Source: Thiovibrio frasassiensis (GTDB taxonomy: Bacteria; Desulfobacterota; Desulfobulbia; Desulfobulbales; Desulfurivibrionaceae). From it: 64,000 bases of DNA. Position numbers and translations under genes: made by a program. Shown in pieces: positions 2,700 through 44,869 of the stretch (position 1 is its first letter; each line of letters opens with the position of its first letter). The stretch spans positions 587,530 to 651,529 of the forward strand of contig NZ_JAPHEH010000001.1 of assembly GCF_029607905.1 (NCBI RefSeq). Direction: 5' to 3'. The notes under the pieces were generated by a model, which searched no databases, was not told the origin of the DNA, and saw only the letters and a list, made by a program, of their open reading frames with translations.

Positions 2700-4250
2700 A
2701 TGCCTGAGAAGAACCGCCAACCCATCGATCTGGCCACCCTCTATGAGATAACCAGGGCCCTGGCCTCATCGGACGACCTGCGCCAATGTTTGGAAGAAAG
2801 CCTCACCGTGCTCTCCGCCCGCACCAACCTGAGCAACGGCGCGGTAACCATCGCCAATCCGATCACCGGCCAGATCGAAACCGAGGTGGCCCCCGGCATG
2901 ACCGCCGAAGCGAGAAAGCGCGGCATCTATAAATTCGGCGAAGGCATCACCGGCAGGGTGGTGGCCAGCGGCTCCCCCATCGTGGTGCCCCAGATCAGCC
3001 AGGAACCGCTTTTTTTAAACAAGACCCGGGCCCGGGCCGAGAAAAACCAGGAGGCCCTCTCCTTTCTCTGCGTGCCCATCAAACACGGCGCCACCACCAT
3101 AGGCGCCCTGAGCGTGGACCGCAACTACCAGGAAGGCATCGACTTTGAAACCGATCTCCAGTTTCTCACCGTGCTCTCCGGCCTCATCGCCCAGACCGTG
3201 GTCCGCATCCAGGCGGTGAACCAGGAGCGGGAGCGGTTGGAGCAGGAAAACACCCAGCTGCGCAGAGAGCTTTCGGAAAAATACCGGGTGGCCAGCATCG
3301 TCAGCAACTCAAGCCGGATGCAGGAGGTGTTCGAGATGATCCATCGGGTGGCTGACTCCAACGCCACCATCCTGCTGCGCGGCGAATCCGGCACCGGAAA
3401 AACCATGGTGGCCAAGGCCATTCACCACAACAGCAAACGGGCCAAGGCGCCTTTTATCGCGGTGAACTGCTCGGCCCTGCCGGAGACCCTGCTGGAAAGC
3501 GAATTGTTCGGGCACGAGAAGGGGGCGTTTACCGGAGCGCAGAACGCCAAGAAAGGCCGCTTCGAGCTGGCCGAGGGCGGCACTCTGTTTCTCGACGAAA
3601 TCGGCGAGTTGAGCCAGTCCGTGCAGGTCAAGCTGCTCAACGTGGTCCAGGACCGGGAATTCCAGAGGCTGGGAGGGATTGCCCCCATCAAATGCAACGT
3701 CCGGCTGATCACCGCCACCAACAAGGATCTGGAAAAAGCCGTGGAAGACGGCTCCTTCCGGGAAGACCTCTATTACCGGCTCAACGTCTTCCCCGTCTAC
3801 CTGCCGCCCCTGCGGGAGCGTCGAACCGATATCATGCTTCTGGCCGAATTCTTCCTCCAGAAATACAACGAGGAAAACTCCAAGCAGATCCGCCGCATCT
3901 CCACCCCGGCCATCGACCTCCTGATCCAGTACCATTGGCCCGGCAATGTCCGTGAACTGCAAAACTGCATCGAACGGGCGGTGCTGATCTGCGATGAGGA
4001 TTCCATCAAGAGCTACCACCTCCCCCCCTCGTTGCAGACCTCCGACTCGGTGAACGAAAGGAGCAATCCGGTTTCCTTTGCCTCCGCCGTGGAAAATTTC
4101 GAACGGGAGTTGATCATCGACAGCCTGAAAAAATGCCAGGGCAACCAGACCAAGGCCGCGCAACTGCTGGACACCAGCCTCAGGATCATCAACTACAAGA
4201 TCGCCAAGCTTAACATCAATCCCCGGCAATTCAAGCTCGCCAAGCCATAG
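2700..4250 (+). CDS. nifA: NifA-type sigma-54-dependent transcriptional activator
   Basis: Enhancer-binding protein of 516 residues with an N-terminal GAF domain (about 20-175), a central AAA+ domain and a C-terminal Fis-type helix-turn-helix. Walker A is GESGTGKT at 228-235, and the sigma-54 contact loop GAFTGA is at 275-280. The GAF region carries the conserved NifA-like stretch GEGITGRVVASG. In relatives it switches on nitrogenase (nif) operons, but no nif structural gene is in this window. The ATG at 2700 follows a GGGAG sequence; an upstream extension to 2490 would overlap the SGNH gene and lacks homology. Confidence is high for the activator class and somewhat lower for NifA itself. Confidence 0.85.
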   Translation: MPEKNRQPIDLATLYEITRALASSDDLRQCLEESLTVLSARTNLSNGAVTIANPITGQIETEVAPGMTAEARKRGIYKFGEGITGRVVASGSPIVVPQISQEPLFLNKTRARAEKNQEALSFLCVPIKHGATTIGALSVDRNYQEGIDFETDLQFLTVLSGLIAQTVVRIQAVNQERERLEQENTQLRRELSEKYRVASIVSNSSRMQEVFEMIHRVADSNATILLRGESGTGKTMVAKAIHHNSKRAKAPFIAVNCSALPETLLESELFGHEKGAFTGAQNAKKGRFELAEGGTLFLDEIGELSQSVQVKLLNVVQDREFQRLGGIAPIKCNVRLITATNKDLEKAVEDGSFREDLYYRLNVFPVYLPPLRERRTDIMLLAEFFLQKYNEENSKQIRRISTPAIDLLIQYHWPGNVRELQNCIERAVLICDEDSIKSYHLPPSLQTSDSVNERSNPVSFASAVENFERELIIDSLKKCQGNQTKAAQLLDTSLRIINYKIAKLNINPRQFKLAKP

Positions 4251-4258
4251 GGTGCGCC

Positions 4259-4819
4259 ATGACCGTTCTCCTGCACCTCTGCTGCGGCCCCTGCACCATC
4301 TTTCCGCTCACCGCCCTGCGTGCGCAGGGGCGTAGCGTGCAAGGCTACTTCTACAATCCAAACATCCATCCCTTCCGGGAATTCAAGCAGCGGCTCGCCT
4401 CCCTTGAGGATCTGGCGCTCCGGACCTCCCTCCCCGTGGAGTATGAACGGGAATACGGACTCAGGGAATACCTGCGGAAGGTGGTGTTCCACGAGGAGGA
4501 ACGCTGCCTGCTCTGCTACCGAATGCGCCTTGAGGCAACGGCGAAAAAAGCCCGGGAGCTTGGGGCGGAGGGCTTCAGCACCACCTTGCTCTACAGCCGC
4601 TACCAGCGCCACGAGGCCATCCGGGCCCTGGGCGAGGAACTGGCGGAACAATACGGGGTTGCCTTCCTGTATGAGGATTTTCGCACCGGCTGGCAGAAGG
4701 GGATTGACGCCAGCCTCGAGATGGGGCTCTACCGACAGCCCTACTGCGGCTGCATCTACAGCGAGCAGGAACGCTACGACAAGAAATTTCGCAAGGGCAA
4801 GGAAAAAAAGCAGGACTAA
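4259..4819 (+). CDS. queH: epoxyqueuosine reductase QueH
   Basis: Last step of queuosine tRNA modification: reduction of epoxyqueuosine to queuosine by the non-cobalamin QueH family (former DUF208). The 186-residue protein shows the family cysteines in order: LCCGPC at 7-12, CLLC at 83-86, and a C-terminal CGC, which together hold the iron-sulfur cluster and adjacent metal. Length matches the family. The ATG is 8 bases downstream of the nifA stop, so the two genes may share a transcript although their functions are unrelated. Confidence 0.92.
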   Translation: MTVLLHLCCGPCTIFPLTALRAQGRSVQGYFYNPNIHPFREFKQRLASLEDLALRTSLPVEYEREYGLREYLRKVVFHEEERCLLCYRMRLEATAKKARELGAEGFSTTLLYSRYQRHEAIRALGEELAEQYGVAFLYEDFRTGWQKGIDASLEMGLYRQPYCGCIYSEQERYDKKFRKGKEKKQD

Positions 4820-4829
4820 CGGCGAGGGG

Positions 4830-4870
4830 ACAAAACGAAATGGGCCTTACCCGCAAGCAGGGAAGGCCCA
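4830..4870 (-). terminator. intrinsic terminator of bamD
   Basis: Inverted repeat TGGGCCTT (4841-4848) / AAGGCCCA (4863-4870). Read on the minus strand the stem is followed by a T-rich stretch (TTTCGTTTTG), which fits termination of the bamD transcript; the plus-strand side has no T run. Confidence 0.65.
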
Positions 4871-4905
4871 TCAGGGCAGCAAAAATTACACGCCGAAAGA
4901 AGCCG

Positions 4906-9088: not shown

Positions 9089-10525
9089 ATGATACACTCA
9101 GACGCATCACGCCCCAAGGACGAATGCGGCGTTTGTGGAATTTTCGGCCATGAAGACGCGGCCAAACTCACCTACTTCGGTCTCTATGCCCTCCAGCATC
9201 GGGGACAGGAAAGCGCCGGAATCGTTGCCAGCGACGGCAGCCAGATCTCTCTGCACAAGGGAATGGGCTTGGTGCACGAGGTTTTCAGCGAGGCTACCCT
9301 GCAGGAGCTGAAAGGCCACCTCACCGTGGGCCATGTCCGCTACTCAACCACCGGCGCCTCCAACATTATCAATGCCCAGCCCTTCACTGCCACCCACCAG
9401 GGCTGCACCGTGGCCGTGGCCCACAACGGCAACCTGGTCAATATCCGCTCCCTGCGCAACGAGCTGGAAAAAAAGGGCTCCATCTTCCAGTCCACCATGG
9501 ACAGCGAGGTTGTGGTCCATCTGCTTGCCCGCTGCTCCCACCTGGGCCTTGAGAAAGCGCTGATCGACACCTTCGAGAGCATCAAGGGCGCCTACTCCAT
9601 CCTGCTCATGACCGAGGACAAACTCATCGCCGTGCGCGATCCCGGCGGCTTCCGGCCGCTCTGCCTCGGTAAGCTCAACAACGGCGGCTTCATCGTCGCC
9701 TCGGAAACCTGCGCCCTCGACCTGATCGAGGCCCAGTATGTCCGCGACATCGAGCCCGGCGAGATCCTGATCATCGACCGCGAGGGCCAGCACTCCCTCC
9801 ACCTTGAGCATAGCCAGCGCCGCAGCTTCTGCATCTTCGAGCAGGTCTATTTTGCCCGGCCCGACAGCGATATCTTCGGCAAAAACGTCTACCAGAGCCG
9901 CAAACGCATGGGCGAGATCCTGGCCCGCGAATGCAAAATTCAGGCGGATTTCGTCATGCCCTTTCCCGACTCCGGCAACTACGCGGCGATCGGCTTTTCC
10001 CAGGCATCGGGCATCCCCCTTGAGATGGGGGTGATCCGCAACCATTACGTGGGCCGCACCTTTATCCAGCCCACCCAATCCATGCGCGACTTCTCGGTCC
10101 GGGTCAAGCTGAACCCCATCCGCTCTTTTTTAAAAGATAAACGGGTCATCATCCTGGACGACTCCATCATCCGGGGCACCACCGGCCGCTCCAGGGTCAA
10201 ATCCCTGCGCGAAGCCGGGGTCAAAGAGATCCACATGCTGATCAGCTGCCCGCCAAGCCGCAATCCCTGCTATTACGGAATCGACTTTCCCTCCGGCGGC
10301 GAGCTCATCGCCAACAAGAAAACCGTTGAGGAAATCCGCGACTACCTGGGGCTTGACTCCCTCTATTACCTCAGCCTTGAGGGGTTGCTGGAAGCATGCG
10401 GCGGCCCGCCGGAGGACTATTGCAAGGCCTGCTTTGACGGGGATTACCCTGTTGCGCCGGACAAGGAGTTCTGCAAGCTTCTCCTTGGAACCAGGAACGC
10501 CTGCCAGTCCACGGGCAAAAAATAG
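9089..10525 (+). CDS. purF: amidophosphoribosyltransferase
   Basis: First committed step of purine synthesis: PRPP + glutamine to 5-phosphoribosylamine. 478 residues of the Bacillus type: a 12-residue propeptide precedes the Ntn nucleophile C13 in ECGVCGIFGH, which must be exposed by cleavage. The PRPP loop reads VIILDDSIIRGTT. Cysteines in SFCIFEQ, PCYYGID and YCKAC match the four ligands of the structural [4Fe-4S] cluster, so the enzyme is expected to be oxygen sensitive. The ATG at 9089 was chosen by family N-terminus; the longer frame from 8735 overlaps metF. Confidence 0.96.
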   Translation: MIHSDASRPKDECGVCGIFGHEDAAKLTYFGLYALQHRGQESAGIVASDGSQISLHKGMGLVHEVFSEATLQELKGHLTVGHVRYSTTGASNIINAQPFTATHQGCTVAVAHNGNLVNIRSLRNELEKKGSIFQSTMDSEVVVHLLARCSHLGLEKALIDTFESIKGAYSILLMTEDKLIAVRDPGGFRPLCLGKLNNGGFIVASETCALDLIEAQYVRDIEPGEILIIDREGQHSLHLEHSQRRSFCIFEQVYFARPDSDIFGKNVYQSRKRMGEILARECKIQADFVMPFPDSGNYAAIGFSQASGIPLEMGVIRNHYVGRTFIQPTQSMRDFSVRVKLNPIRSFLKDKRVIILDDSIIRGTTGRSRVKSLREAGVKEIHMLISCPPSRNPCYYGIDFPSGGELIANKKTVEEIRDYLGLDSLYYLSLEGLLEACGGPPEDYCKACFDGDYPVAPDKEFCKLLLGTRNACQSTGKK

Positions 10526-10542
10526 GAACCCCTCCCAAACCA

Positions 10543-11514
10543 ATGAGCATTGAACAGGCCAAGGAAGTACTCCGCATAGAAGCCGAAGGCATCACCGCCC
10601 TGCTTGAACAGATCGACGCCGATTTCGAGAAAGCCGTGGCCATGATCATGGAATGCCCTGCCCGGGTGGTGATCACCGGCATCGGCAAATCAGGGATCAT
10701 CGGCCAGAAGATCGCCGCCACCATGAACAGCACCGGCACCCCGGCCCTGTTTTTGCACCCGGTGGAAGCCATGCACGGCGACCTCGGCATGGTGGATCCT
10801 CAAGACGTCATCCTTGCCATCTCCTACAGCGGCGAAACCGCGGAACTCAGCCTCCTGCTCCCCAACCTCAAAAAGCGCGGGGCCAAAATCATTGCCATGA
10901 CCGGCAATCCGGCCTCCAGCCTTGCCCGGGGGGCCGATGCGGTGCTCAAGGTCGCGGTGCCCCAAGAGGCCTGCCCCTTGGGCTTGGCCCCCACGGCCAG
11001 TACCACCGCCGCCCTGGCCATGGGCGATGCTCTGGCCGTAGTGCTCTTGAACCTCAAGCAGTTCAAGGAAAGCGATTTCCGGCGCAACCATCCGGCCGGC
11101 AGCCTTGGGGAGCGCCTCAAGGTCAATGTTGCCGAGGTCATGCTTACCGGCGCAGCGGTTCCCAAGGTTTCCCAGACCGCCACCCTGCCGGAGGCCATCG
11201 CCGAACTGAACGCCAAAAATCTTGGCGCGGTGCTGATCATGCAAGCAGAAGAGATCACCGGCATCCTCACCGATGGCGATCTTCGCCGTTTGCTCAGCCA
11301 GAAAGGCGCAAGCCTGAACGGCCTCACTCTATCCAACGCCATGACCGCCAAGCCCAAAACCATTACCGCGGATCTTCTTGCCGCCGACGCCCTCAGCATC
11401 ATGCAGCGCCACGAAATCACCTTTCTGGCAGTGACCGAATACAGCGGCAAGCTGGCCGGCGTCCTCCATCTTCAGGATTTGCTGGGCAAGGGTGAGTTCC
11501 GCTTTCTGGTATAA
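10543..11514 (+). CDS. kdsD: D-arabinose-5-phosphate isomerase (KdsD/KpsF/GutQ family)
   Basis: Interconverts ribulose-5-phosphate and arabinose-5-phosphate, the precursor of KDO in lipopolysaccharide. 323 residues: a SIS sugar-isomerase domain (about 35-180; TGIGKSGIIGQKIAATMNS, ISYSGET) followed by a pair of CBS domains (about 200-320; GILTDGDLRR). Length and domain order match KdsD. It starts 17 bases after the purF stop and is probably in the same transcript; a hairpin with a T run follows at 11536. Confidence 0.94.
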   Translation: MSIEQAKEVLRIEAEGITALLEQIDADFEKAVAMIMECPARVVITGIGKSGIIGQKIAATMNSTGTPALFLHPVEAMHGDLGMVDPQDVILAISYSGETAELSLLLPNLKKRGAKIIAMTGNPASSLARGADAVLKVAVPQEACPLGLAPTASTTAALAMGDALAVVLLNLKQFKESDFRRNHPAGSLGERLKVNVAEVMLTGAAVPKVSQTATLPEAIAELNAKNLGAVLIMQAEEITGILTDGDLRRLLSQKGASLNGLTLSNAMTAKPKTITADLLAADALSIMQRHEITFLAVTEYSGKLAGVLHLQDLLGKGEFRFLV

Positions 11515-11535
11515 AACCGCGATAACGTTTTCACC

Positions 11536-11595
11536 AAACAGCCCCCGAAAAACCGCTTATTCTGTAGATATACCTATTGGGCGGGGCTGTTTTTT
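11536..11595 (+). terminator. probable terminator after kdsD
   Basis: AAACAGCCCC (11536-11545) pairs with GGGGCTGTTT (from 11583) across a 37-base loop and runs into six T. The long loop lowers confidence. Confidence 0.5.
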
Positions 11596-11632
11596 ATGCT
11601 AGAGTACGCGACGCTGAATTGGTCCAATGGAT

Positions 11633-11683
11633 TATAATCCAGCGACACCCGGTTAGAAATTTACCCGGCGCTCAATGCCGGGT
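11633..11683 (+). promoter_or_regulatory. promoter -10 and leader hairpin ahead of the hdrC-mvhD-metV operon
   Basis: A perfect TATAAT (11633-11638) lies 72 bases before the first ATG; the -35 region is poor, so an activator may be needed. The expected leader contains a small perfect hairpin, ACCCGGC (11663-11669) / GCCGGGT (11677-11683). Confidence 0.4.
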
Positions 11684-11709
11684 TTCATATCTTACGATGA
11701 GGCTTTGTT

Positions 11710-12276
11710 ATGGCAATCACCAGCAAGGATATCAATTCGGCCTTCAGTGCCGAGGTAACGGCGATTCCGGGAGGCGAATTCCTAAACCGCTGTTTTTCCT
11801 GCGGCGCCTGCAGCGGTATCTGCCCGGTCAGTCAGGCAATCCCGGATTTCGACCCCAGAAAGATCATCCACATGATCCGGATGGGGTTGAAAGAGACGCT
11901 GCTCAAATCCGATTTGCTCTGGTTCTGTTCCCGGTGCCGCAGCTGTGTCTTTGTCTGCCCCCAGGACGTCCGCTTTGCCGAGATCATGGTCGCCCTTCGC
12001 CAGCTGGCCTTGAAGGGAGGCTACATCAGCGAGCAGGATCTGCTCGACAAGGGCAAGAGTGCCTGGGTTGAACGCGATCTTTGCGTCTCCTGTCTGACCT
12101 GTGTCCGGGTCTGCCCCTGGCGGATTCCAAAAATCGACGACCAGGGCAAGGCTGCCATCGATCCCCAGGAATGTCGCGGCTGCGGCATCTGCCCCTCCGA
12201 ATGCCCTGCCCAGGCCATCCGCTTAAACGAGTCCGAGGATGAGCGTTTGATCGCCGCCTGCGGCGTAAATCAGTAG
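11710..12276 (+). CDS. HdrC-like polyferredoxin
   Basis: 188-residue electron-transfer protein. Residues about 28-85 are HdrC-like with CFSCGACSGICP and CSRCRSCVFVCP (two [4Fe-4S] sites); the C-terminal half adds a bacterial-type two-cluster ferredoxin (CVSCLTCVRVCP and CRGCGICPSECP), giving four predicted clusters. It belongs to the heterodisulfide reductase-like C family, here probably passing electrons between the MvhD-like protein and MetV. HdrA and HdrB are not adjacent. The ATG at 11710 gives an N-terminus of normal HdrC length. Confidence 0.85.
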   Translation: MAITSKDINSAFSAEVTAIPGGEFLNRCFSCGACSGICPVSQAIPDFDPRKIIHMIRMGLKETLLKSDLLWFCSRCRSCVFVCPQDVRFAEIMVALRQLALKGGYISEQDLLDKGKSAWVERDLCVSCLTCVRVCPWRIPKIDDQGKAAIDPQECRGCGICPSECPAQAIRLNESEDERLIAACGVNQ

Positions 12277-39329: not shown

Positions 39330-40670
39330 TTACCCCTGATTTTGCAAACGTTCCGCCAGATGTTCAACCTGCCCCCGAATACTGCCGCTGCGGACAATGG
39401 CTTCGGTAATAACCCGGATGGAATGCACCACCGTGGAATGATCCCGGTTGAATGCCTTGCCGATCTCGGACAGGGCCTCTTCGGTGAGCTTTCTGGCCAG
39501 ATACATGGAAACCTGCCGCGGAAAGGCGATGGTCTTTTTCCTCGCCTTGGACTGCATCTCTTCGATGGAGACATCAAACTGGCCGGCCACGAAATTACGG
39601 ATCAAGACGGAGGACAACTCCTGCCGCTGCCCGATGATCCCGGCGACGATCTCCTTGACCATGTCCAGGTCGGGCATGGTTTTATGCAGGGAGGCCTTGG
39701 CCTTCAGGCCGATGATGGCGCTTTCCACCCGACGGATATCGCCCTGGATCCGGTCGGCCAGAAACTCGATGATCTCCCCGGAGAGCGTTAGTTTGTTGTT
39801 GCGGGCCTTACGCTCAATGATCAGGCAACGGGTCCGCCGGTCCGGCGGGTTGATGGTGGTAATCAGCCCGGAGGAGAGCCGGGAACGCACGCCGTCATCG
39901 ATGTCCGGGATATTGCGCGGGGAAACGGCCCCGGTGAAGATCACCCTTTTGCCGCAATCCATCAGGACATCAAGGGCCTCGGCAAGCTCGGCCTGGGTCT
40001 TGGTCCGACCGGCCAGGGATTGCACATCCTCCATCAGCAGCACATCACACTGGTTATGATATTTTTCCTTAAAATGGTCCATGGTGTTATTCTTGATGCT
40101 GCGCACCATTTCCGAGGTGAGCTGCTGGGAGGTGACATAATGCAGCCGGGTTCCCGGAGAGTGGCTCGTTACATAGTGAGCCACCGCATGGGTCAGATGG
40201 CTTTTGCCCAAGCCCGTTCCCGCTTCAATAAACAGGCAGGGGCTTAAGGCGGAATCGCCGCCGGCCATGGCCTCGCAGGCCGCATACGCCATGGCGTTGG
40301 ACTCGCCGACCATGAATTCGTCAAAGGTATAACGCGGGTGCAGGGTCCGGACCGTGGAGCGCGCCACCGGCATGCTGGGCAAACGGAGCTGGCTCTGTTT
40401 CTTTTCCGGTTCCGGCAAGAGCGGCACCCCATTCCCGGCGGTATCCACGGAAAGGCGCACCGCCCCGCCGGTATAGCCGACATCCTGCAAGGCGGCCTGA
40501 ATATCACCCAGATAGTTATCCTTGACCCAAGAGCAGAAATACGGGTCCGGCCCCGCCAGTTCGACGCTCTGGGCATCGTCATGGACGCATTGTAAAGGTT
40601 CGATCCACAGCTTGAAATCACTGTCGGATACTTTCTTCGACAAAACACTCTTAACTCGTTGCCAAAGCAT
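39330..40670 (-). CDS. dnaA: chromosomal replication initiator DnaA, divergent
   Basis: 446 residues with domain I (LWQRVKSVLSKKVSDSDFKLWI), an AAA+ module and domain IV. Walker A reads AGTGLGKSHLTHA instead of GGVGLGKTHL, Walker B is DVLLMEDVQSLAG, and domain IV has FNRDHSTVVHSI close to the DnaA signature. ATG 40670 is preceded by AGGGG; an in-frame TTG at 40694 lies upstream. No dnaN, recF or gyrB neighbours, and no DnaA-box cluster in the upstream gap, so it may be a second DnaA or an unlinked sole copy. Confidence 0.9.
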   Translation of the reverse strand: MLWQRVKSVLSKKVSDSDFKLWIEPLQCVHDDAQSVELAGPDPYFCSWVKDNYLGDIQAALQDVGYTGGAVRLSVDTAGNGVPLLPEPEKKQSQLRLPSMPVARSTVRTLHPRYTFDEFMVGESNAMAYAACEAMAGGDSALSPCLFIEAGTGLGKSHLTHAVAHYVTSHSPGTRLHYVTSQQLTSEMVRSIKNNTMDHFKEKYHNQCDVLLMEDVQSLAGRTKTQAELAEALDVLMDCGKRVIFTGAVSPRNIPDIDDGVRSRLSSGLITTINPPDRRTRCLIIERKARNNKLTLSGEIIEFLADRIQGDIRRVESAIIGLKAKASLHKTMPDLDMVKEIVAGIIGQRQELSSVLIRNFVAGQFDVSIEEMQSKARKKTIAFPRQVSMYLARKLTEEALSEIGKAFNRDHSTVVHSIRVITEAIVRSGSIRGQVEHLAERLQNQG

Positions 40671-41150
40671 CTTTTTCCCCTGGTTCACTGACAAAAAAAC
40701 AACCGATTAAAGCGAATTGAGACCGCTGAGATAATTTCTGCCCGTTTTTTTAAAGGAAAAGCATGCCCCCTGTCAAAACCGTTCTCAAGGAATTTGCCCC
40801 CCCCGGCTTGCCAAGTTTTCAACAGCCCATAACCCCAGGTAAACGGGAGAAAATCTCCTGGAAACCCTCTAAAAACTGGATATTTCGCCCCTTTTGCCGG
40901 CAACGGCAAAAACCGCAAAATTCCATACGGTTAGAGCCTGAAGGCGAGAAGAAAATATCATTTCATTAAGCACTAAACCTTTAACATTTCTCTTCATATC
41001 TCATTATTACTGCTATTATCTCATTTTATCTTCTTTCTTACTTCGGTATCTTTTTTCTGTTCTTGGCATGCCCCTGTTCTCTCGGTTTTTTTCCTCAAAA
41101 CATTTTTTTATGCTATACCTTAAAGAAGTTTACCCCTAAGGAGACCCGCC
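40671..41150. other. 480-base intergenic region upstream of dnaA, A/T-rich in its second half
   Basis: No gene seen. Contains a hairpin TTTTGCCG (40898-40905) / CGGCAAAA (40910-40917) and, at about 40980-41060, a strongly A/T-rich stretch with the direct repeat ATCTCATT spaced about 20 bases. One weak DnaA-box-like TTTTCAACA lies at 40816-40824. Should hold the divergent promoters of dnaA and the cytochrome operon, but no convincing -35/-10 pair is visible. Confidence 0.4.
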
Positions 41151-42221
41151 ATGGACCCAGCCCAACTTATTCCCACCCCAGACACCATCCCGGCCCCCTG
41201 GGGCTTTTTTGAGTTTTTCCTTATCCTGACTTTTTTCGCCCATCTTCTCTTCATGAACGCCATGCTGGGCACTGCCATAATCGCCATGCTCAGGGAAATG
41301 CGGACCCCATCGACCGCCCCGCCGCCCTGCCAAGATATCGCGAACAAACTGCCATACACCATCGCCTTTGCCGTGAACTTCGGGGTGGCCCCCCTTCTTT
41401 TTCTCCAGGTTCTTTACGGCCATTTCATCTATACCAGTTCCATTCTCATGGGGGTGTACTGGCTTTCCATCATCGGCTTGCTCATTCTCGCCTATTACAG
41501 CGCCTACCTCTATAAAATGGCTTCCGGCCTGCCCTCCGCCTCGCGAAAACGAACGCTGGGTACAAGCATCCTGCTTCTGCTGATCACTGCCTTTCTCTTT
41601 GTCAACAATATAACCCTGATGCAGACCCCGCAGAGCTGGGAGGTGTATTTTCACAGACCGGACGGCACCTTCCTGAATCTGGCTGAGCCGACCCTGCTCC
41701 CCCGCTACCTCCACTTTGTCGTGGCCTCGGTGGCGACAGGCGGACTTTTCTTGGCGATTCTCGCCTTTTTTCAAGGCAAAAAAGATCCTGCCGGGGCAAC
41801 AAAACGGCTGAGCACAGGGATGAAATGGTTTACCTACGCCACGGTGGTCGAAATCGGCACCGGCATCCCCTTCCTTTTTTCCATGCCAAAAAACGTGCAC
41901 CAGCTCTTTGTCGGCGGTGCCCTCCTGCCCACCCTCCTTTTTATCGCCTCGCTGGTCGCGGCCGGGTTCTGTCTTTACTATGGCACCAAGGAGCGGGTCT
42001 GGCCGGCCACTGTCGCCATGGCCGCAACGATCCTTTTCATGGTGCTGGTGCGGGATCTGGCCAGACAGGCCTATCTGGCCCCCTACTTTCATCCCGCCGA
42101 CCTGCAGGTCGTGCCGCAGTGGTCGCCGATGTATCTTTTTCTGGCGATACTGGTGATCGGGGTTGCGGTTATTATCTATATGCTTAAACTCGCGGCCCGG
42201 GTGCCCGAGGAGGTACGCTAA
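41151..42221 (+). CDS. cytochrome bd-superfamily membrane subunit, degenerate
   Basis: 356 residues with eight or so membrane helices. Helix 1 carries H31 in FFAHLLFMN, at the position of the CydA b595 His. The segment aligned to CydA helix 3 (MGVYWLSIIGLLILAYYSAY) lacks both conserved glutamates, so it probably does not hold the active-site hemes itself. It overlaps the next gene by one base (stop/start TAATG), so the two proteins are likely made in equal amounts and form a complex, much as CydB pairs with CydA. TAAGGAG precedes the ATG. Confidence 0.7.
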   Translation: MDPAQLIPTPDTIPAPWGFFEFFLILTFFAHLLFMNAMLGTAIIAMLREMRTPSTAPPPCQDIANKLPYTIAFAVNFGVAPLLFLQVLYGHFIYTSSILMGVYWLSIIGLLILAYYSAYLYKMASGLPSASRKRTLGTSILLLLITAFLFVNNITLMQTPQSWEVYFHRPDGTFLNLAEPTLLPRYLHFVVASVATGGLFLAILAFFQGKKDPAGATKRLSTGMKWFTYATVVEIGTGIPFLFSMPKNVHQLFVGGALLPTLLFIASLVAAGFCLYYGTKERVWPATVAMAATILFMVLVRDLARQAYLAPYFHPADLQVVPQWSPMYLFLAILVIGVAVIIYMLKLAARVPEEVR

Positions 42222-44869
42222 TGAATTATCCGATCTGGCAGTTGGATTTTTCCGGTGGCGGCTTGCTCATCGCCCTGATCGCCATCCTGCATGTGTACAT
42301 CTCCCATTTTGCCATCGGCGGCGGCCTCTTTCTCGTGCTCACCGAGATGAAAGGGTACCGGGAAGGCTCCCAGGAGATCCTTGATTATACCCGCAAACAC
42401 ACCAAGTTCTTTCTGCTCCTCACCCTGGTACTGGGTGCCATCACCGGGGTGGGCATCTGGTTCACCATTGCCCTGATCGCCCCGGCCGCAACCTCGGTCC
42501 TTATCCACAACTTTGTTTTCGGCTGGGCCATAGAGTGGCTCTTTTTTCTCGGCGAAATCGTCGCCATCCTCATCTATTACCAGACCTTTGGCCGCATGGA
42601 ACGACGCAGCCACCTGATCATCGGCTGGCTCTATTTCATCTTTGCCTGGCTCTCCCTTTTTGCCATCAACGGGATCATCGGCTTCATGCTGACCCCCGGC
42701 AAATGGCTGACCACCGGCAACTTCTGGGACGGGATCTTCAACCCCACCTTCTGGCCGGCCCTTTTCTTCCGCACCTTCCTCTGCCTCATGCTGGCAGGCC
42801 TTTACGGCTTCCTGACCTCCACCGCCATTAAGGACGAGGGGTTTCGCTTACGCATGGTGCGCTACTGCGCCACCTGGCTGCTCGCCCCCTTTCTCCTCTT
42901 TCTCGCCTCCGCCTACTGGTATGTGCAGAGCCTGCCGGAAGGCCCCAAGGGTTGGCTGCTCAACCTCGACGCCACCCTGGCTCCCTATCTCACCTTCTTT
43001 GTCTGGGGCTCCCCCATTCTCTTTCTTGGCGGGTTGCTCATGGTCATCCGGCTGCCGCAGACCGCCAAGCGGGCTCTGGCCGTGCTCCTGCTCCTGCTCG
43101 GCATTGCCTACATGGGCTCCTTTGAGTACATCCGGGAGGGCAGCCGCAGACCGTACACCATCTCCGGGCATATTTACGCCAACTCCATCCTGGTCAAGGA
43201 TCTGGCCGCGGTTTCCGAAAAAGGCGTCCTCGCTTCGGCCAAGTGGGTCAGCAAGGATATCACCGAGGCAAATCGGATGGTGGTCGGCAGACAGATCTAC
43301 AACATCTTCTGCGCTTCCTGCCATTCCATCGGCGGGCCCATCCGCGACATCCGAAAATTGAGTGCCAAGTATGCTTCGGTCTATGTCATGGAGGGAGAGA
43401 TCGGCGGCCAGGGAAAACTCATCGGCTGCATGCCGCCCTTTCCCGGCACGGAAGCAGAACGCAACGCCCTGGCCACTTTTCTGGTGGAAGGTTTGCAGGG
43501 CAAGAAACAGCCTGCAGCCAGGGCACAACTCATCACCCCGCCCCTGCCCCCTTTGCCCTTTGAGCCAGATTCCTCCGAGTATATTCTCCTCGCCTGGAAC
43601 TCCCTGGGCATGCACTGCATGACCGATGCGGACAGCTATTTCAGCATCCTGCCCCCGGGCAATACCCTCCAGGCGCAGCTGATCAAACGTGGACCTATCC
43701 CTTCCGTTATTACCGACGGCGTAATCCTCTCCTATCGGGTGGAGCCGGGCTTTGAAAAACCGGCCGATAAGGTGGATTTCTGGAAATACCTCCCTTCCCT
43801 TTACGGCACCAGCAAACCGGACAATATCGGCTTAAGCGATAACGGTCTTGCCGGGAACATGACCCCCCATGCGGAAAGCAAGGCTTTTGTCGCCGACAAG
43901 GTGCCGGTGGTGCCATACCCGGATGCGGGCGGCTATATGCCCTACCCATCCTTCACCATTGAAGCGAGGGATAAGGGGACCAACGGGCTGCTCGCTTCCA
44001 CCCGCATGATTGCGCCGGTTTCCACCGAGATGGGCTGCAACAACTGCCATGGCGGCGGCTGGAGCAAGGGAGTTGCCGGGATCTCGCCGGTGCCGACCAA
44101 GGATTTCCTTTCTGTCCATGACCGTTTCAATAAAACCACCCTTCTCGCCTCGGCCAAGCTCGGGAAACCGGTGCTCTGCCAAAGCTGCCATGCCGACCCG
44201 GCCCTGAATGCTCCGGGCAAGCCAAAACTCCTCAATCTGTCCGCCGCCATCCACGGCTGGCATGCCAACTTCCTGACCGGTCGCGGGGCCGAGGCCTGCG
44301 GTCTCTGTCACCCCAACAATCCGCAGGGCAGCACTCTCTGCCTGCGCGGCATCCATAATGATGCCGGCTTAACCTGCATCAACTGCCACGGCACCCTGGA
44401 AGATCACGCCCTCTCTCTGCTTGTGGCCGAGAAAAAGGCGGGCAAGAAGGGGGCGGACCGGCTGATGCAGCACCTGAAACCCCGGACGGCACCAAGCCTG
44501 GCCGAGATCAAGCCGCGCACCCCCTGGCTGAACGAACCGGACTGCCTCACCTGCCATGTCAATTATGGCCCGCCGGAGACGGACAGCGCCTTTAATGTCT
44601 GGACCAAGGACGGCAGCGGGCTCTACCGCAATCGCCATGACGAGTCGGGCAGCATCCATTGCGCCACCTGCCACGGCAGCCCGCACGCCATCTACCCGGC
44701 CACCAACCCCTACGAAAGGGAGCGGGACAACTTCGGCCCCCGGCAGTACCAAAACAACCCCTATCCCATCGGGGCCAATAAAAACTGCAAGGTCTGCCAT
44801 ACCATTGAAATGGAGGTGGAGATGCACCACCCCAACTCCCTCAACATGATGCGCAACACCCGGGAGTAG
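42221..44869 (+). CDS. CydA-like oxidase subunit fused to an octaheme c-type cytochrome
   Basis: 882 residues. Residues 1-305 form eight membrane helices related to CydA: H24 (b595 His), E105 and E112 (the E99/E107 pair), and E306 in REGSRRPY (matches E445 of TEVGRQPW). The b558 His is Arg (R184 in FFRTF), the b558 Met is absent and there is no Q-loop. Residues from 355 are periplasmic: a class I cytochrome c (FCASCH 363-368) and seven more CXXCH, eight in total. The protein probably feeds c-heme electrons to a bd-type centre; oxygen as acceptor is inferred. Confidence 0.82.
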   Translation: MNYPIWQLDFSGGGLLIALIAILHVYISHFAIGGGLFLVLTEMKGYREGSQEILDYTRKHTKFFLLLTLVLGAITGVGIWFTIALIAPAATSVLIHNFVFGWAIEWLFFLGEIVAILIYYQTFGRMERRSHLIIGWLYFIFAWLSLFAINGIIGFMLTPGKWLTTGNFWDGIFNPTFWPALFFRTFLCLMLAGLYGFLTSTAIKDEGFRLRMVRYCATWLLAPFLLFLASAYWYVQSLPEGPKGWLLNLDATLAPYLTFFVWGSPILFLGGLLMVIRLPQTAKRALAVLLLLLGIAYMGSFEYIREGSRRPYTISGHIYANSILVKDLAAVSEKGVLASAKWVSKDITEANRMVVGRQIYNIFCASCHSIGGPIRDIRKLSAKYASVYVMEGEIGGQGKLIGCMPPFPGTEAERNALATFLVEGLQGKKQPAARAQLITPPLPPLPFEPDSSEYILLAWNSLGMHCMTDADSYFSILPPGNTLQAQLIKRGPIPSVITDGVILSYRVEPGFEKPADKVDFWKYLPSLYGTSKPDNIGLSDNGLAGNMTPHAESKAFVADKVPVVPYPDAGGYMPYPSFTIEARDKGTNGLLASTRMIAPVSTEMGCNNCHGGGWSKGVAGISPVPTKDFLSVHDRFNKTTLLASAKLGKPVLCQSCHADPALNAPGKPKLLNLSAAIHGWHANFLTGRGAEACGLCHPNNPQGSTLCLRGIHNDAGLTCINCHGTLEDHALSLLVAEKKAGKKGADRLMQHLKPRTAPSLAEIKPRTPWLNEPDCLTCHVNYGPPETDSAFNVWTKDGSGLYRNRHDESGSIHCATCHGSPHAIYPATNPYERERDNFGPRQYQNNPYPIGANKNCKVCHTIEMEVEMHHPNSLNMMRNTRE

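Follow-up and report, generated by a model that had tools for sequence, protein, structure and literature searches.

We analysed a 64,000-nucleotide stretch of the Thiovibrio frasassiensis genome (contig NZ_JAPHEH010000001.1, positions 587,530 to 651,529; hereafter the window, whose own numbering is used below), in which two adjacent genes on the + strand form a candidate respiratory complex of the cytochrome bd superfamily. The downstream gene (42221..44869, +) starts with ATG and encodes a fusion protein of 882 amino acids with no internal stop, and the upstream gene (41151..42221, +) encodes a partner protein of 356 amino acids. Both genes meet in a TAATG junction, where the start codon of the fusion gene shares one base with the TAA stop of the partner gene. 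The fusion protein begins with a CydA-like membrane core (residues 13-309; 42257..43147, +), delimited by the Pfam profile PF01654, by an AlphaFold2 (AF2) model with eight transmembrane (TM) helices, and by Foldseek, alignments and conservation. The core is followed by a class I cytochrome c domain (residues 356-421; 43286..43483, +), a beta-sandwich domain (residues about 454-597; 43580..44011, +) and a heptaheme module (44036..44833, +).

The eight CXXCH motifs of the protein start at residues 364, 606, 653, 693, 719, 775, 814, and 856. The first (C364-x-x-C367-H368) belongs to the class I domain, which is recognized by a Pfam match to the CBB3-type cytochrome c family (PF13442), by PDB matches to cytochrome c6 and by its conservation, with an invariant Met ligand (M404) among the homologs. 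The other seven define the heptaheme module by motif and conservation, and in a Pfam search c7/c3-type multiheme profiles match residues 690-870. The beta-sandwich domain, placed from the AF2 secondary structure, has no Pfam or NCBIfam match and belongs to no known family. Exactly eight CXXCH motifs are kept in all 23 untruncated octaheme relatives (44-88% identical), a set that leaves aside two homologous loci, L016, where the gene ends with its contig, and L014, where a frameshift splits the fusion gene (L014:1551-4385), as a sequencing error or a pseudogene. Because these 23 homologs come from separate assemblies, a chance fusion or an assembly artefact is ruled out, and the initial annotation of 42221-44869 as one chain with a class I cytochrome c and seven further CXXCH motifs is confirmed.

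By profile, fold search and putative ligand residues, the membrane part is a subunit I of the bd superfamily. The CydA profile PF01654 matches residues 17-194 with E = 5.9e-9 and 35.4 bits, above the curated cut-off of 26.2. Foldseek with the AF2 model of the fusion protein ranked the CydA chain 5doq_A first among PDB entries (E = 6e-6, probability 1.00), followed by 8b4o_A, 9r2g_A, and 7nkz_A; bd-oxidase chains made up the whole set of 12 matches with E <= 0.001, ten of them being CydA and two CydB. A direct hhalign comparison of the core with the canonical CydA of the Desulfobulbales scored weakly (E = 0.0022, 13% probability) owing to the shallow depth of the two alignments; the assignment is accordingly based on Pfam, Foldseek and the profile search of the PDB. 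The predicted ligands of the high-spin di-heme site are all present: H24, E105, and E112 pair with H21, E101, and E108 of Geobacillus CydA in a phmmer alignment, and E306 pairs with the Glu of the AEVGRQPW motif in the PDB profile alignment. H24, E112, E302, R305, E306, R309, and R184 are invariant in 40 homologs, one of them at about 31% identity, and E105 is kept in 39, with a single Asp. Alignment to solved CydA structures and the fold match suggest that H24, E105, E112, and E306 would converge on one pocket. Four further His residues of the core (H29, H96, H60, and H131) are strongly conserved and could ligate extra b hemes.

The fusion protein lacks the features of a quinol-oxidizing bd enzyme, namely the b558 His, the b558 Met and the Q-loop. 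The residue that hhalign aligns with the b558 His is F183, within the segment F183-R184-T185 (42767..42775, +) delimited by alignment and conservation; the invariant R184 follows it. Across the 40 homologs, no Met of TM7 is conserved at a position like that of the CydA ligand. The AF2 model connects TM6 to TM7 by a linker of about 14 residues, which leaves no Q-loop. The initial annotation had predicted from the letters a CydA-like core with the ligands H24, E105, E112, and E306, a missing b558 Met and no Q-loop, and all of this holds, as does the placement of the membrane part in the bd family rather than outside it when the proposed profile search was run. Its statement that the b558 His is replaced by R184 stands in part: the His is absent, but the aligned residue is F183 and the Arg lies one position further on. 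Absent from that annotation are the partner protein, the repeated linkage to genes for O2 and NO reduction in relatives, and the reported CydA homolog of cable bacteria with its periplasmic cytochrome c domain (PMC13047784), all of which are taken up below.

The partner, with nine TM helices in its AF2 model, appears to be a degenerate paralog of the CydA core, and we refer to it as CydA'. Wherever the contig of a homologous locus covers the flank in question, a homolog of the partner is the immediate neighbor of the fusion gene, either upstream or downstream; the contigs of L002 and L006, where none is seen, start with the fusion gene itself. By hhalign, the partner aligns with the fusion core at E = 3.5e-11 over 230 columns, compared with 0.065 or worse for unrelated membrane proteins. 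Sequence searches found less: the partner has no Pfam family of its own, a single member matches PF01654 (E = 6e-4), and its profile found no real relative in the PDB. In Foldseek its best matches are CydA chains with CydB chains next, so the fold alone is not decisive. The partner keeps H31 at the position of CydA H19 in all 23 members and H188 at the b558-His position in 22 of the 23, and its R301-(D/E)-x-x-R305 motif resembles the R-E-x-x-R of the core, while both Glu residues of the di-heme site are lost. From the hhalign score, the fold, the retained His and RxxR residues and the lost Glu residues we concluded that it is most simply a CydA paralog. A CydB identity was tried and rejected, as none of the 23 members matches PF02322 and the hhalign score against CydB (E = 0.04) is near background; in the genome itself, PF02322 matches only at the canonical cydAB locus. 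The strongly conserved H31, H188, M297, and M344 of the partner could ligate extra b hemes. Two CydA paralogs thus stand side by side, the arrangement by which a CydAA'-type heterodimer is recognized, and the complex would be a CydA/CydA' heterodimer without CydB in which the fused subunit bears the catalytic residues.

How electrons might reach such a site is suggested by the topology and by the c-heme arm. In the AF2 model and the sequence, the most positively charged inter-helix loops (residues 44-51, 122-130, 203-214, and 277-284) share one side of the membrane. The positive-inside pattern would place the C-terminus together with H24, E105, and E306 on the periplasmic side, so that the class I cytochrome c following TM8 would sit directly above the di-heme site. 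The heptaheme module has exactly seven invariant His residues outside its CXXCH motifs (633, 678, 681, 712, 822, 869, and 870). These would suffice for seven bis-His hemes, that is, for carriers rather than catalytic hemes, which suggests an electron wire over a second active site.

We therefore consider it fairly probable, from sequence and models, that the two genes encode a heterodimeric terminal reductase of the bd superfamily that is fed by periplasmic c-type cytochromes and not by quinol. The entry point for electrons would be the heptaheme module with its bis-His hemes; from there they would move to the heme of the class I domain, which is attached to the end of TM8 beside E306, and then jump directly to the di-heme site. 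There, O2 would be reduced to water with protons taken from the cytoplasm, and CydA' would stand where CydB normally does. Entry of electrons from the c hemes is the reading that best fits these features; the direction of flow, the substrate, the heme types, the cytoplasmic proton uptake and the association of the subunits are what we infer along with it. The complex would likely serve to clear traces of O2 and to respire at low O2 in an anaerobic, sulfur-metabolizing bacterium of the Desulfobulbales by way of its periplasmic cytochrome pool. We see an even chance that it is a bd-type cytochrome c oxidase whose arm draws electrons from periplasmic or even extracellular cytochromes and bypasses the quinone pool, with a CydA paralog replacing CydB.

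The distribution of the system bears on the role of the c hemes. Some part of the fusion protein is matched in 122 of 194 genomes of the order, and octaheme homologs occur in named assemblies of Desulfobulbales, Desulfobacterales and Desulfovibrionales (closest named locus L001, 87% identical); some of the homolog records carry coarse titles such as 'Deltaproteobacteria' or 'Proteobacteria'. Core-plus-diheme forms are found in Acidobacteria and Aminicenantes. Among relatives, the number of c hemes on the core ranges from one to four or is eight, and in a distant form the core has a single one and the partner is fused to two class I domains. That the core stays constant and its c-heme part is exchanged suggests that electrons enter through the c hemes. 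In the tree, whose deep forks are open and in which the distant L078 forms a long branch, the monoheme group nests among octaheme sequences. This suggests that the octaheme form was gained once, long ago, in the Desulfobacterota and that the heptaheme module was lost in the monoheme lineage; a recent one-off fusion is contradicted by the same tree.

Several variant loci have features of their own. The partner is fused to two class I cytochromes c in L078:1518-4461 and L076:505-2457, and in L078 a SoxA/TsdA-type diheme cytochrome adjoins. Separate proteins of 451-513 amino acids combine a beta domain with a multiheme part of seven to nine CXXCH motifs (L084:3457-4998, L085:3351-4763, and L086:3135-4490); they are about 37% identical to the C-terminal half of the fusion protein and belong to no named family. 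A gene with a NifU_N domain lies beside the core gene in tri- and tetraheme variants, confirmed by Pfam in L079:4458-4886 and alike in appearance in L080:2401-2835.

The same parts could in principle work in the opposite direction. In that case quinol would be oxidized at a new site in the partner, and electrons would leave through the octaheme arm to periplasmic or extracellular acceptors, making the complex a quinol:cytochrome c reductase like alternative complex III. H31, H188, M297, and M344 of the partner could hold a b heme for this purpose, a similar role has been proposed for bd-like proteins of Nitrospina (PMC3578206), and in the Pfam search the heptaheme part shows a weak similarity to MtrC/MtrF domains that lies at the cut-off. 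Foldseek also matched both subunits, more weakly, to the NrfD-fold subunit of polysulfide reductase. We nevertheless regard reversed flow as unlikely, since there is no evident reason for a mere conduit to keep the complete set of high-spin di-heme ligands, as 40 homologs do, a quinol motif is not recognizable, and genes related to oxygen lie nearby in relatives.

These neighbor genes speak to the substrate. The window genome has a canonical cydAB, and no heme-copper oxidase was found in it. In six named Desulfobulbales loci (L017-L022), the canonical cydAB genes lie divergently upstream of the partner gene, and they are likewise divergent next to the operon in L087-L090. A gene for an Rrf2 regulator stands between cydAB and the operon in L017 (confirmed by Pfam) and in several others. 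In the Desulfobacterales locus L011, rubredoxin and flavodiiron protein genes lie upstream (3257-4872) and a different cydAB lies downstream (9313-11736), and in L016, also from Desulfobacterales, a flavodiiron protein is encoded upstream (2828-4018); the surroundings of the operon in these two loci look like an oxygen-defence cluster. Genes for the reduction of O2 or nitric oxide (NO) are thus linked to the operon in at least two unrelated arrangements, which supports an oxygen (or NO) chemistry. An FNR-type palindrome was looked for upstream of the operon and not found, and promoter and terminator scans stayed at background level.

With the electron route unchanged, the substrate could be NO, alone or together with O2, which would make the complex a detoxifying NO reductase built on a bd scaffold and fed by c hemes. 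Profiles named 'anaerobic nitric oxide reductase flavorubredoxin' match the flavodiiron proteins of L011 and L016, and the Rrf2 regulators of L017 and L087 score with NsrR among others, in both cases below cut-off. For these regulators NsrR is outscored by the SUF-regulator and IscR models, and the linkage to cydAB favors O2. In sulfate reducers, O2 is also a substrate of flavodiiron proteins, and we know of no bd-family enzyme established as an NO reductase by turnover. We rate an NO-reducing enzyme as rather unlikely. A redox sensor or an electron-storage device, which the several predicted low-spin hemes and the redundancy of a second oxidase beside canonical CydAB might suggest, is very improbable given the retained active-site ligands, the lack of a signalling domain in the Pfam search, and the wide occurrence in the order with variable c-heme modules.

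Some observations weigh against a c-heme-fed O2 reductase. In the genus of the window, the operon has an oppositely oriented dnaA-type gene on one side and feoAB on the other, rather than oxygen genes, and where flavodiiron and Rrf2 neighbors do occur they fit NO as well as O2. H29 and H96 of the core are invariant and find no explanation in the proposed scheme. The AF2 models are of single chains without hemes and have a moderate predicted local distance difference test score (pLDDT; 75 for the fusion protein, 78 for the partner). As to the flanking gene, it encodes a full-length DnaA with all three Pfam domains (window 39330-40694, - strand) and is divergent to the operon; the cumulative GC skew in the window does not switch sign there, and a replication origin at this place may not hold.

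Comparison with known systems shows which parts are shared. The canonical CydAB of the same genome has the subunit I fold and the di-heme ligands in common with the fusion protein, whereas the Q-loop, the b558 His and Met and CydB are present there and absent from the complex described here; by hhalign, similarity of the fusion core to CydB was undetectable. The archaeal CydAA' of Caldivirga, reportedly described by Murali and colleagues in 2021, is said to consist of two CydA-type paralogs without CydB, to be active with quinol and to carry no c hemes. Judged by this description, the paired CydA paralogs are what it shares with our complex, and its quinol use and its lack of c hemes are what set it apart. 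The bd-like oxidases of Nitrospira and Nitrospina resemble CydA in their N-terminal part, heme ligands included, lack the Q-loop and the quinol residues, and are clustered with c cytochromes; they differ in their 14 predicted TM helices, their separate c cytochromes, and the context of nitrite oxidizers, and do not show the octaheme layout.

According to the available portions of the literature, Murali et al. (2021) distinguish three families in the bd superfamily, of which one has a quinol site and two lack it (PMC8509429, PMC10839748); the initial annotation, too, mentions members without this site. For the members lacking the site (OR-C and OR-N), the available text gives cytochrome c as the proposed donor (PMC10839748, PMC8509429, PMC13189123). 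By description, these families share with the fusion protein the CydA core, the di-heme site, the absence of a quinol site and the cytochrome c donor, and OR-C as defined in secondary sources, a bd core without quinol site and with heme c as the probable donor, fits it; the octaheme fusion, undescribed in the accessible literature, is the feature found here. In cable bacteria (Desulfobulbaceae), CydAh, a homolog of CydA whose cytochrome c domain faces the periplasm, is proposed to reduce O2 with periplasmic electrons, as stated in the accessible part of PMC13047784. This combination, likened by description only, recalls the fusion protein, while that part of the article mentions neither an octaheme module nor a CydA' partner.

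As of 2021, all biochemically characterized bd enzymes were quinol oxidases and an enzyme with another donor was still to be obtained (PMC8509429). If our reading is true, the complex would be the first bd enzyme shown to have a donor other than quinol, and it offers a compact test case, with core, wire and partner encoded by two adjacent genes. It could also answer how periplasmic electrons reach O2 in Desulfobulbales, a question unsettled for cable bacteria (PMC10030654, PMC13047784). The Murali families, CydAh and the Nitrospira and Nitrospina proteins make bd proteins without a quinol site a kind known from sequence, and the T. frasassiensis protein best reads as belonging with these branches, akin to CydAh of cable bacteria; its combination of an octaheme chain with a CydA' partner is, as far as the accessible literature shows, a new architecture among them.

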